The notes below the pieces were generated by a model, which saw nothing but the letters and a program-made list of their open reading frames with translations, was not told where the DNA came from and did not search any database. Both the position numbers and the translations under genes were made by a program. From the NCBI RefSeq assembly GCF_020520425.1, contig NC_079487.1, forward strand, positions 126,936,385 to 127,000,384: DNA of 64,000 nucleotides, written 5' to 3'. Positions 5,601 through 56,898 of this stretch are shown here, piece after piece (position 1 is the first letter of the stretch; each line of letters starts with the position of its first letter). Origin of the DNA: Spinacia oleracea (lineage: Eukaryota > Streptophyta > Magnoliopsida > Caryophyllales > Amaranthaceae).

Positions 5601-6873
5601 GTGTGGAGAATTGGAGATCATGTACATCAAGTGAATTTTAAAATCTCATTCCATGTTACTGTGTTTTCAACAAAAAGTGCCTTCTATTTTTAGTGTGTGA
5701 ACATCATGCATATGAGGTGCATTTTAAAACTCATTCGTCTTTACTTTTTTTTCAGAAAAAATTGTTTTCTAATTATGACGAGAGATTGTTATTTGAATGC
5801 ATCTTGTACACGTCAATGTTGCTGCAATGCCCAAGGTTACTTAAGGCAACACTTTTGAGAAATGAGATAGGTGAGTAATATTTTAATTGAACGAGAGAAG
5901 ATGTAATACACTAACTTCTGGAATGGAAAGAGGGAGGTAATAAAATCATAGTGGACTTGCCCCTACTATGTAACGGAGGGAGTATTATAATTGAACCAAC
6001 AATGACGACCTTAGTCAATGAATTAGTGAGTGACAGGTAAATCACTAACAGTCAATCTACCAGCAAGTAACAGGTAAATCCCAAACAGTCAATCTATCAG
6101 CAAGCGAAAGTAATAAGTAAATCTCTAATTAATGTACTCTGTATCATGTTATAGATCTAAACACAGGCAACCTGAACATTAGAATGCATTGCCACAAAAG
6201 TGCATCTTTAAAAGGGTGACTATACTGGTGCAAGAGAATATGGTTTTACCAAATTTGCTGATGACCTATATTTTTTATGATGTGAGGAGAACTGGAGGTA
6301 AAGTCAGTTGAAAAGATAGGACAACTATGAGCCGATTCCAACCTTATTGAATCAAAAAGAACTTATGTAGCATTAAAACTGGATAAAACTAGACCTTGTT
6401 GAACAAAAATGTCAGCTTCAGAAGACTAAACGTATAACCCTAACATGCTAGTAACTTCATAAAAAATAGAAAAAGCAAGATTGATAAGAGTGGACAGGCA
6501 TGAAAGTAACAATTCAGATGACACGTCAAAGTGTAGATAGGGATGAACTATGCACCAATCAAAAGACATCAGCAAAACAGCCAGATCTTATGCCAGAAAC
6601 GTTAAGCAGACAGTGGAATAAACGTAACACATTTCATTTCACACCCATAAAAAAAAGCTTACCTTGATCATTCCTAGCAGTAAAAATTATCATTCCCGTC
6701 TCATCTCCGACCAAACATTCAGCAAGTCTCATTTGACGTACTTGAGGTCCTCTTTGCATAACTAACTTTGAATCAACAACCTTGACTGTGACATTAAGAC
6801 CACTAGTTCCAGGTCGTAGTTGATCAACTTTGGTGAAAACTGGTTTCCTCATTTCTTGCTTTGATTCAGCCAT
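2647..6873 (-). CDS. OB-fold nucleic-acid-binding protein (At4g28440/At1g23750-like)
   Basis: Two coding exons, 6873-6663 and 2840-2647, join in phase to give 134 residues, the usual length for this small plant family. The first exon runs from MAESKQEMRKPVFTK to the ARNDQ strand. The second holds the diagnostic TVTLRNA..IDIYKGSMRLAVDRWG and VKEDNNLSL.EFELV blocks of the single OB fold related to the SOSS-B/RPA2-like ssDNA/RNA binders. The donor is GGTAAGC at 6662 and the acceptor CAG ends at 2841, leaving a 3.8-kb intron with nothing recognisable in it. A probable 5' UTR exon ends at 7588 (CAG/GTGATT), with its acceptor before 6887, so transcription likely begins near 7650. Its cellular role is not well defined. 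Arabidopsis relatives are only described as OB-fold-like. Confidence 0.88.
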
Positions 6874-24370: not shown

Positions 24371-24605
24371 TAAATTCAATTTGTTATATAAAATAAAATT
24401 TTAATAGTAAACGATCAAGTTATATGGGGATTATCTTGTTTCTCAAATGTAATGAACTAATAATTGCATGATAAGATACTGTCGTACATGTTCTAGACTT
24501 TTAAGGGGTGTTTGGAATTGTTAGGATGGTGTTTTGGAGACTAGTGTTTAAAAGTAGAAAATTTGACATTTTTATTTATATGTACGTAGGATAGGGTGTA
24601 TTGGT

Positions 24606-25634
24606 TAGGGGTGTCAAATCGGATCAACGGATCGGGTTTGGGTCGGACTCATCGGATTCGGGTTGAAACGGATCGGATTGGAACGGATTAATTTGGCTAA
24701 CGGGTCGGATCGGATCGGATTGAAAACTTAACGGACCGGATCGGGACGGATTTTTTATTCACGGATTCATATCGGATCGGGTTGTAAACGGGTCGGATTG
24801 TAGTCGGTTTGGGTCGGATCGGATCGGATTGGAATACGACGGATTGTTAACGGGTTTAGTCGGACTATAACGGGTTCGGGTTCATGTCGGTCGGATTAAT
24901 ATCGGATCGGATTCATATCGGGTCGGATTCATATCGGATCGGATTCATTTCGGATCGGATTCATATCGGATCGGATTAATCGGTAACAGACTAAAACGGG
25001 TTGGATTGAAACTAATTTAGCCTGGTTACATTGGATTCAGTTTTATATTGGTTCGGGTAATTATCGGATCGGGTTATTTGGTAGCGGGTTGGAATTTGGG
25101 GCAGTTCGTTTCCAAATTATATATTATCATATCGATGACTTAATTAGGCCGGGGACGAAAATAATAACTAACTTTTAAAAGTAATAAGAATTTAAGATTA
25201 GTAATATAAGTTATTGAATATATTATTATATCGATGGGTTGGAATTAGTTCGGATTAAACAGGTCACGGATTAAAAACGGATCGGATCTAACGGGTCACG
25301 GGTTGAAACGGGTCGGATTAAACGGGTCACAGGTTAAAAACGGATCGGATTAAACGGATATTCCTCGGGTTGGAACGGATTCGGATTGAAACGGATCGGA
25401 TCATAAACGGGTTTCGGATCGCTTCGGATCGGATTAAATGGATCCGGATTGTCACGGATCGGTCTGTTAACGGATTCGGATCTTAATCGGATCAATACTA
25501 ACGGGTTGGGTCGGATTCGGGTTGAATATAATCGGATTTCGGATTTTAACTCGCGGGTTCTAAACGGTTCGGATTCTAAACGGTCGGACAAACTCATCGG
25601 GTTCACTGGGTCGGATTGAGAATTGACACCCCTA
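24606..25634 (+). mobile_element. hAT-like non-autonomous element, copy 1, with CGGATCGG/AAACGG arrays
   Basis: The ends are TAGGGGTGTCAA and TTGACACCCCTA, flanked by a perfect 8-bp duplication GTATTGGT (24598-24605 and 25635-25642), as expected for the hAT superfamily. The 1,029-bp interior is almost entirely degenerate repeats of CGGATCGGATT and AACGGGTCGG, with at least twelve AAACGG hexamers, all on the plus strand. A non-repetitive AT-rich core lies at about 25100-25245. No transposase. ORFs inside are repeat artefacts. The copy at 30769-31866 shares ends and core. Confidence 0.93.
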
Positions 25635-25642
25635 GTATTGGT

Positions 25643-30768: not shown

Positions 30769-31866
30769 TAGGAGTGTCAATTCTCCATCAGACCCAGTGA
30801 ACTCGATGGGTATTTTCGGCCGTTTAGAATCCCGAACCGTTTAAAACTTGCGAGCTAAGATCCGAAATCCGATCCAGTCCGATTATATTCAACCCAAATC
30901 CGGCCCAACCCGTTAATATTGATCTGATTAAGATCCGAATCCGATAACATACCAATCCGTGACAATCCGTATCCGTTTAATAAAAACCGAAGTGATCCAA
31001 GACCCGTTTATGATCCGATCCATTTGAACCCGAATCCGTTCCAACCAGAGGAAAATCCGTATACTCTAATCCGTTTGTAATCCGTGACCCGTTTAATCCA
31101 AACCGTTTCAACCCATGACCCGTTTAATCCGAACCCATTTAACCCAAACCATTCACGACCCATAGAGAACATTAATTATGTTGCACTACCAATTAAGCGT
31201 ATTACTATTAGTTATACGGTGTACTTGTACATCATTCTCCCTTTATATACTCTGCTCAAATGAAACTTGTAATTGATGTAGATTTAAGGCGTAAAGAACT
31301 TTCAGGAACGGATGTAGTATTAAACTAAGTTATATATTATATACTCAATAACTTATATTACTGATGTACTATTAAATTCTTATTACTTTTAAAAGTTAGT
31401 TATCGCTTTCGTCCCCTAATTAAGTCATCGATATTTATGATTATATAATTTGGAACCAAATGGACCCGACTTGGATTCCTACCCGCTGCCGAATAACCCG
31501 ATCCGATAATAACCCGAAACGATATGAAACTGAATATGATGTAACCCAACTAAATCCGTTTCAATCCGACCCGTGTTAGTCTGTTACCCGATTAATCCGT
31601 CCCGATATGAATCCGAACCCGTTAAAATCTGTCATGTTCCAATCCGATCCGATCCGACACAATCCGACTACAATCCGACCCGTTTACAACCCGATTCGAT
31701 ATGAACCCGTGCATAAAAAATCCGACCTGATCCTGATCCGTTAAGTTTTCAATCCGTTCCGATCCGACCCGTTAGCCAAATTATTCCGTTTCAATCCGAC
31801 CTCGTTTCAACCTGAATCCGATGAGTCCGACCCAAACCTGATCCGTTGATCCGATTTGACACCCTA
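30769..31866 (-). mobile_element. hAT-like non-autonomous element, copy 2 (reverse orientation)
   Basis: The 1,098-bp element starts TAGGAGTGTCAA and ends TTTGACACCCTA between a perfect 8-bp duplication GGCCCAAT (30761-30768 and 31867-31874). Its interior is the reverse complement type of copy 1 (ATCCGATCC, about eleven CCGTTT). The AT-rich core at about 31320-31460 is homologous to the core of copy 1. It is inverted relative to copy 1 and 5.1 kb away. Confidence 0.93.
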
Positions 31867-47677: not shown

Positions 47678-48225
47678 TAGACCTGTCAAACGGGTCGGTC
47701 GGGTCGGGTTGTAAAAATTTACTTTCGGGTTCGGGTTGAATCGGGTCGGTCACTTTCGGGTTCGGGTTTACAAATGCTTGTTCAAGACCCAGAACTTTCG
47801 GGTTCGGGTCGACCCAACGGGTTGAGAGATTTTAAAACGCGCAATATATTTTCATTAATTTAGGTGAAAAATATACAAAATATTAGCACAAGTTAACAAA
47901 TTATCCTACGAAAGTTTATATTTTGTCAAATTCAATCATAAAATGGCGTATAATTCAAATTAAAATCATATTACACAGAAAAATAGTAAAAACAACGTGT
48001 CTTTTATGCTTAAATTTTCTCATAATCTCATTTATTACTATAAATACAATGATTTTCAATCGGTCGGGTCTAAAACGGGTTCGGTTGGGTTTTGACCCAT
48101 TCCTTTTCGGGTTGTTCGGGTTCGGATAAAATCGGGTTACGGGTCACAAAATCTTGTTCAGGACCCAGTATTTTCGGGTCGGGTTCGGGTCGGTTTTCGG
48201 GTCGGGTCGATTTTTGACAGCTCTA
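47678..48225. mobile_element. hAT-like non-autonomous element, CGGGTCGGG type
   Basis: Starts TAGACCTGTCAA and ends TTTGACAGCTCTA between a perfect 8-bp duplication GTAGTAGG (47670-47677 and 48226-48233). Both subterminal regions are arrays of CGGGTCGG/TTCGGGTT, and the middle is AT-rich. 548 bp, non-coding, a different family from the 24.6-kb element but of the same design. Confidence 0.9.
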
Positions 48226-56529: not shown

Positions 56530-56898
56530 TAAATATGGTTGTGTGCCGGGTCGGGTTTTGGGCCGAGCCCACGGGTCGTGGGCCTAACCGGTCCGGGTCC
56601 AATCTAGGCTCGCGTTGTATCGCGCGGGCCGAGCCGAAAAATTCAAAACAAGGCCCTGGCACAGCCCGAGCCCACAGGCTTTTGCGTCAGGCCAGGTCAG
56701 CCCGTCGTGCTTAAGGCTAATTTACAAAATTTAGCGTGCTTTGTCGTAACGGATCGAGTCGTGCAGTACCTTGTCGTGATTTTTTCCAAAATATTGAGGC
56801 CCAGATCCGACCCACGACTTCGTGTCTGTGCAGGCCCGGGCCGGACTTTTTTCGTGTCGGGTCAGGCTTCGGGCCGGCCTTGCCCACATCCATCTTTA
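56530..56898. mobile_element. hAT-like element relic, CGGGCC type
   Basis: Left end TAAATATGGTTGTGTGCCGG and right end inverted (…CCACATCCATCTTTA) agree at most positions. Flanks TATATATG and GTTATATG match at 6 of 8. The interior is a GC-rich array of GGGTCGGG, GGGCCGAGCC and GGCCCGGGCC. Non-coding. Confidence 0.6.

Follow-up and report, generated by a model that had tools for sequence, protein, structure and literature searches.

A hAT MITE family of spinach with one-directional CGG arrays, its transposase-coding partner and a sister family whose left array differs at the base after CGG

The stretch of DNA analysed here, referred to as the window, comprises 64,000 nucleotides of the Spinacia oleracea genome (NC_079487.1, positions 126,936,385 to 127,000,384 of the forward strand). 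It contains an intact hAT element of 1,029 bp with exact boundaries at 24606-25634, flanked by two copies of a perfect 8-bp target-site duplication (TSD), GTATTGGT (24598-24605 and 25635-25642). The terminal inverted repeats (TIRs) are TAGGGGTGTCAA on the plus strand at 24606-24617 and, on the minus strand at 25623-25634, a repeat that reads TTGACACCCCTA on the plus strand; they are perfect across 12 bp and agree at 93% across 15 nt. These ends and the perfect duplication bear out what had been noticed in an earlier reading made from the letters alone (the sequence-only reading). We take the perfect end TAGGGGTGTCAA to be of the TAGGG/CAGGG type of hAT TIR. Inside the TIRs lie two subterminal arrays of short CGG-containing units on the plus strand. 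The left array (24620-25087) has 49 CGG in WCGGRTY units that point inward, towards the spacer, and the right array (25250-25614) has 39 CGG on the same strand, with units pointing outward, towards the right end. They are separated by a plus-strand spacer at 25088-25249, about 160 bp long and AT-rich by eye, which holds one CGG and the junction of the internal deletion. The earlier description of repeats filling almost the whole interior thus holds for the two one-strand arrays and is slightly overstated in view of the spacer. The element has 89 CGG versus three CCG, and no open reading frame of 150 aa or more overlaps it.

A longer element with the same left end is found at C2:33673623-33679879 (L048). 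It measures 6,257 bp and has perfect TIRs and the TSD CTTGTGAG. Its open reading frames are open, and a GT-AG intron (GTAAGT...CCTTAG) joins two exons in frame, as judged by eye; exon 1 encodes a zf-BED and a hAT-like RNase-H domain and exon 2 a Dimer_Tnp_hAT domain, all scoring above the Pfam cut-offs (loci L048 and L079). The 8-bp TSD, the short TIRs and a transposase with BED, RNase-H-like and dimerisation domains on a same-ended element are the features of the hAT superfamily. The sequence-only reading presupposed a hAT transposase with matching ends in the genome, and the element on C2 provides it. Two further transposase copies lie about 3 kb downstream of an exact left 20-mer. One is 99% identical and open, and its right end was not found where expected; the other is 96% identical with one stop, and has both ends and a perfect TSD, TTTGGAAG. 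A sequence search of the PDB gave no relevant relative (best E 0.8).

The two halves of the window element align to positions 1-635 (90%) and about 5850-6257 (93%) of the 6,257-bp element. Because its halves match both ends of this element, the window element is evidently an internal-deletion derivative of a coding element of about 6.3 kb (6.26 kb in the copy found). It is gene-less, has many near-identical copies and shares its ends with a longer coding element, as a non-autonomous MITE of the Ds type does. The arrays, too, were inherited. The long element is represented by one genomic copy, which along its left side shares only about 90% identity with the window element. Positions 1-560 of the long element contain 53 CGG and positions 5766-6257 another 48, with CGG:CCG ratios of 53:0 and 48:1, compared with 49 and 39 CGG in the window element. 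The proposal that the array had over-grown in the small element is ruled out by this comparison, as the long element is richer in sites (101 CGG, 53 plus 48, versus 89).

The sequence-only reading regarded AAACGG, the hexamer bound by the maize Ac transposase, as the array unit and counted at least twelve copies on a single strand. The count is correct, with twelve on the plus strand and none on the other, three of them in the left array and nine in the right. The hexamer is, however, a subset of the sites, accounting for 12 of the 89 CGG in the window element. When the window element was shuffled with its 2-mers or 3-mers kept, 1.5 and 5.7 hexamers were expected and none of 500 shuffles reached twelve; when 4-mers were kept, the expectation was 11.1 and 182 of 500 shuffles reached twelve. 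The hexamer count thus follows from the repeat composition, being equalled by shuffled interiors of like composition, and the over-representation that would single out an Ac-type site is seen under 2-mer and 3-mer shuffles but not under 4-mer shuffles. On the latter, AAACGG is ruled out as the unit. By count it ranks 9 in the window element, and 24 and 3 in the left and right arrays of the long element, where it occurs four times (4 of 53 CGG sites) and twelve times, respectively.

A different word is shared by both arrays. In the two arrays of the long element, the base before CGG is A or T in 96-100% of cases, and CGG is followed by A or G (89-94%), then T (91-92%), then C or T (95-96%); the words common to both arrays are WCGGRTY and CGGATCGG. 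WCGGRTY occurs at plus:minus counts of 45:0 and 41:0 in the arrays of the long element, 2:1 in the 5.2 kb between them and 71:0 in the window element. None of 300 4-mer-keeping shuffles reached its count in the window element or in the left array, and 16 of 300 did so for the right array. In the simplest reading, WCGGRTY would be the candidate BED site of the family, and the whole array, rather than any single site, would mark the ends.

The whole-genome search covered 894 Mb in 242 contigs, and the best 40 of 1,000 first-look candidates were scored; all 40 match the window element at 93-100% identity. The exact left 20-mer is present in 123 copies. Forty-eight loci were examined, 47 of them distinct (L059 repeats L002). 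Among these 47, the 8-bp TSD is perfect at 34, has one mismatch at four, including L039 with its doubtful 173-bp pair, and was not found in the stretch read at nine, one of which is the long element on C2, whose TSD proved perfect once the right end was read. Across 32 aligned copies of 1,009-1,081 bp, four are mutually identical, and a single substitution plus ten gap columns set them apart from the window copy; they occupy four different sites with four different duplications. As copies fall into identical groups whose members stand at different sites, one such group being this close to the window copy, the window family has been amplified recently. At C1:94594987 (L006), a copy one substitution away from the identical group is without an 8-bp duplication, and by eye its flanks share only GTGG.

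The family is diverse in length. When the 100 listed left ends, of the 123, were paired with exact right ends no more than 13 kb away, at least 51 copies resulted: 30 of 1,006-1,081 bp, three shorter (164, 238 and 489 bp) and 18 longer, the last with classes at around 1.3, 2.7 and 3.8 kb among them. Two of the pairings are longer than 11 kb and may be nested elements or unrelated ends. The three short derivatives contain 17, 18 and 39 CGG, respectively, and each is represented by one copy among the 51 paired copies. The 164-bp member (C5:21893839-21894002) has a perfect duplication, GTTGCAGT, and by eye its left array passes without a break into the final bases of the right one, as though the two arrays, being of the same direction, had recombined. 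A 4,117-bp member (positions 884-5001 of L046, C1:134 Mb) has perfect ends and a perfect duplication and no open reading frame longer than 99 aa; for much of its middle no alignment with the long element is listed, and this part is perhaps captured sequence. The window itself holds a second copy of the family, 1,098 bp long on the minus strand at 30769-31866, with a perfect TSD that reads GGCCCAAT on the plus strand, 59 CGG versus four CCG, and eleven AAACGG. Its left TIR lacks one base and its right TIR has one substitution and, going by these changes, the copy is probably older. Judged by title and the opening of the abstract, none of the publications found on hAT MITEs and their subterminal repeats (including nDart1), on such MITEs in spinach, on direct repeats in hAT elements, on abortive gap repair or on hAT coevolution reports the window family, and within the literature searched the string TAGGGGTGTCAA turns up in one paper, on base editing. 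A survey of spinach repeats lists 397 hAT elements, and such a family is not named in the sections consulted (PMC6337768).

A third hAT-like family is represented in the window by a 548-bp MITE on the plus strand at 47678-48225, with the TIRs TAGACCTGTCAAA and TAGAGCTGTCAAA and the TSD GTAGTAGG. It has a one-directional CGG array at each end, with 28 CGG, no CCG and two AAACGG in total, and G is the usual base after CGG (22 of 28). All 40 scored genome matches, the best 40 of 1,698 candidates, are 99-100% identical to it. Since G follows CGG at 22 of 28 sites in this family, the A after CGG in the window family may be the derived state, which the comparison suggests without proof. At least 40 matches at 99-100% for an element with 28 CGG also suggest that an element can spread widely without a large number of sites.

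These data bear on the idea that the window element is an Ac-type AAACGG array, over-grown in a small element since more sites mobilise better. Twelve hexamers on one strand within hAT ends would fit it, as would the binding of AAACGG by the Ac transposase, for which three copies are required (PMC3260210), and the site-poor derivatives of 164, 238 and 489 bp that are single among the 51 paired copies. We nevertheless regard this explanation as very improbable, because the hexamer shows no excess over 4-mer shuffles and lies mostly in the right array, the long element combines four and twelve hexamers with more CGG, and the 548-bp family has at least 40 near-identical matches with 28 CGG. Taken by itself, better mobilisation with more sites finds no support here, the 548-bp family speaking against it and the single-copy short derivatives for it.

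Six other 3' ends in the same genome (L028, L009, L023, L030, L032 and L035), putative hAT ends judged from the 3' side only by TIR-like sequences with one or two mismatches, resemble the window family in having CGG/CCG words before the TIR-like end. Unlike the arrays of the long element, with 53:0 and 48:1, they use both strands: in the 450 bp before the 3' end, their CGG:CCG counts are 6:11, 11:6, 16:6, 5:6, 13:13 and 12:12, the last two belonging to near-copies of each other. Judging from these putative ends, the one-direction rule is not general among the hAT ends of the genome. A GC-rich segment of the window at 56540-56860 has ten CGG and eleven CCG, likewise on both strands, and is possibly another hAT-type element.

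Our main reading, to which we assign a probability of roughly 0.8, is that the window element is a recently mobile hAT MITE that arose from an element of about 6.3 kb by loss of the interior, and that its arrays are likely multiple weak BED sites. The MITE is what remained of the coding element, its two subterminal regions, once the interior had been deleted. At the ends of the long element WCGGRTY occurs 45 and 41 times, always on the same strand, and its own BED-finger transposase would most likely use the arrays as multiple weak sites in recognising and pairing the ends. With every site on that strand, the units point inward at the left end and outward at the right, and the transposase would meet two ends that are unequal by construction. 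Both the binding of the BED finger to WCGGRTY and the importance of the same-strand arrangement to the transposase are predicted, and for the latter the housefly element Hermes lends mixed support by analogy. A McDonald-Kreitman-like test of site constraint within the family gave odds ratios of 0.47-0.79, which lean the way that constraint would predict, with P of 0.075-0.53 in eight comparisons, none of which is significant. We make no claim of helical phasing of the CGG. At a period of 5.25 bp, the observed signal was reached by 0 of 500 permutations for the right array, 7 for the window element and 190 for the left array. The signal is gone at 5.3 bp (left array 401, right array 269, window element 474 of 500), and there is none at 10.5 bp (281, 60 and 169 of 500).

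The arrangement has parallels in well-studied hAT systems. The maize Ac transposase binds repeated AAACGG cooperatively, and some Ds1 elements without the hexamer still move (PMC3260210). Ac/Ds resembles the window family as a hAT system with internal-deletion derivatives and multiple short subterminal sites, and Ds2 keeps about 200 bp per end (PMC3260210). The window family differs in that its arrays span about 470 and 365 bp and are built of WCGGRTY units instead of AAACGG; its own units all lie on one strand at both ends. Hermes likewise makes 8-bp duplications and has many short subterminal BED repeats that are unequal between its ends; its octamer supplies the BED fingers and finds the left end through short subterminal sites (PMC10368747). 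Its repeats also form near-tip runs of one direction, with left STR2-7 antisense and right STR1-5 sense, whereas its proposed site is AAG(T/C), present 17 and 14 times per end, and contains no CGG in the description given there (PMC10368747). In the same account, activity showed no dramatic drop when inner left-end sites were mutated, no BED domain bound to the right end, and symmetrised left/left ends were inactive and not rescued by restoring unequal BED sites (PMC10368747). If Hermes is a guide, the mutation, right-end and non-rescue results argue against a large role for inner sites and for direction. Among hAT-derived BED proteins, most motifs contain CGG and nearly each protein has its own preference, and for all four of the four motif-bearing hAT proteins the motif matches lie in subterminal regions (PMC8097297). 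These CGG-binding BED domains are CGGBP-like and form a further parallel. This set differs in including two insect hAT proteins with AT-rich motifs; the word 'plant' is absent from the main text, and the parts consulted give no in-register comparison of arrays (PMC8097297).

A sister family allows such an in-register comparison. Nine loci, by our own grouping, have transposase matches 52-82% identical to the window-family transposase, and the sister transposase is 68% identical to it. At three of the nine, a left end, TAGGGGTGTCAAATCGGGTC, lies 3.7-6.0 kb upstream on the same strand; at the other six, no such end is that near. Of the 111 TAGGGGTGTCAAATCGGGTC ends, 100 are listed by place, and the remaining ones lie beyond all nine loci. 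By simple arithmetic, an end so near is expected by chance at about 4 in 10,000 per locus. Only this distance and the shared strand at the three loci link the sister arrays with the sister transposases, and the three left ends were compared; a right end of the sister elements (C6:5490668, C6:94003169 and C2:41357063) was sought and not found. Several sister left ends lie about 22 kb apart in a cluster at C6:17.6-18.9 Mb, which suggests a segmental duplication.

The three sister left ends contain 41-42 CGG in about 370 bp, with one to three CCG, and each aligns in order with the left array of the window family at a score above all of 300 block shuffles. Block-shuffled alignments, too, give high CGG match counts (means of 31-33 of 45, against 36-38 in the true ones), and identity at the other positions does not rise above that of shuffles, 97 of 300 of which equal it. 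Our evidence is therefore confined to the alignment score and to the base that follows CGG. This base is A at 31, G at 8 and T at 2 of 41 sites in the window family, whereas in the sister it is A at none, G at 28 and T at 14 of 42 sites; two further sister copies have A at 1 of 41 and 1 of 42. In the three alignments, A of the window family is kept after CGG at 1 of 27, 5 of 28 and 2 of 24 positions, and at other aligned positions at 38 of 45, 38 of 47 and 41 of 53 (Fisher P of 4e-12 to 1e-7). Three comparisons inside the window family gave no such contrast (30/33 after CGG versus 63/67 elsewhere, 21/25 versus 44/47 and 31/32 versus 65/67; P of 0.23 to 1.0). The two transposases have also diverged faster in the BED finger, with 21 of 46 residues identical, than in the catalytic part, with 316 of 429 over residues 90-530 (Fisher P 2e-4). 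Residues 1-43 of the sister transposase are likewise just 14/42 identical; as the whole sister N-terminus diverges fast, the BED divergence need not be adaptive.

The in-register change of one base looks like coevolution of transposase and site, and may reflect a new specificity. We tentatively propose, at somewhat short of even odds, that the sister hAT lineages record a completed change of specificity, in which the BED finger and about 25 sites of the left array (CGGA to CGGG or CGGT) would have changed in place, with number, strand and order kept, and in which one-direction arrays would make the two ends built-in opposites. The latter half is weakened by the finding in Hermes that unequal BED sites did not rescue the symmetrised element.

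Gene conversion or mutation bias could instead have spread a one-base change along the sister array without any coevolution with the transposase. Repeat arrays can be homogenised, 17 of the 24 substitutions of A at shared sites are A to G, a transition, and the two array families are the only ones compared in register, at their left ends. Such a process fits poorly with the retention of A at 77-84% of other aligned positions against 4-18% after CGG, with arrays that are still alignable in order, and with a change to both G (17) and T (7), which leaves no one converted sequence; we hold it to be unlikely, while giving it appreciable weight. A more sweeping alternative is that replication slippage inside a mobile element expanded a GC-rich word neutrally, in the manner of a satellite, and that the arrays have no binding role. 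Tandem blocks of 16 and 32 bp are clear in the window element, up to 87 gap columns separate main-class copies from the window copy, and the within-family test showed no significant constraint, all of which slippage would accommodate. Yet the long element has its two ends filled with WCGGRTY on one strand and nearly lacks the word between them (2:1 in 5.2 kb), and the sister array has stayed in order, above 300 block shuffles in each of three copies, with its sites changed mainly at one position, where slippage should presumably have replaced the spacers along with the sites. We judge neutral slippage to be rather improbable, and prefer the coevolutionary interpretation of the sister array, tentative as it is.

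What appears to be new here is the one-directional left array of the sister family, in register with that of the window family and changed at the base after CGG. To our knowledge, it is an open question how a hAT transposase can come to read a new DNA word and still keep its own dozens of sites, along with the many gene-less copies that rely on it. Because the long element, the small copies recently derived from it and a sister family whose array is apparently recoded in register all occur in one genome, the question of specificity change could be approached by pairing two BED domains with two kinds of array. Should the same-strand arrangement prove important, it would offer a simple sequence reason why the two ends of such an element are not interchangeable.
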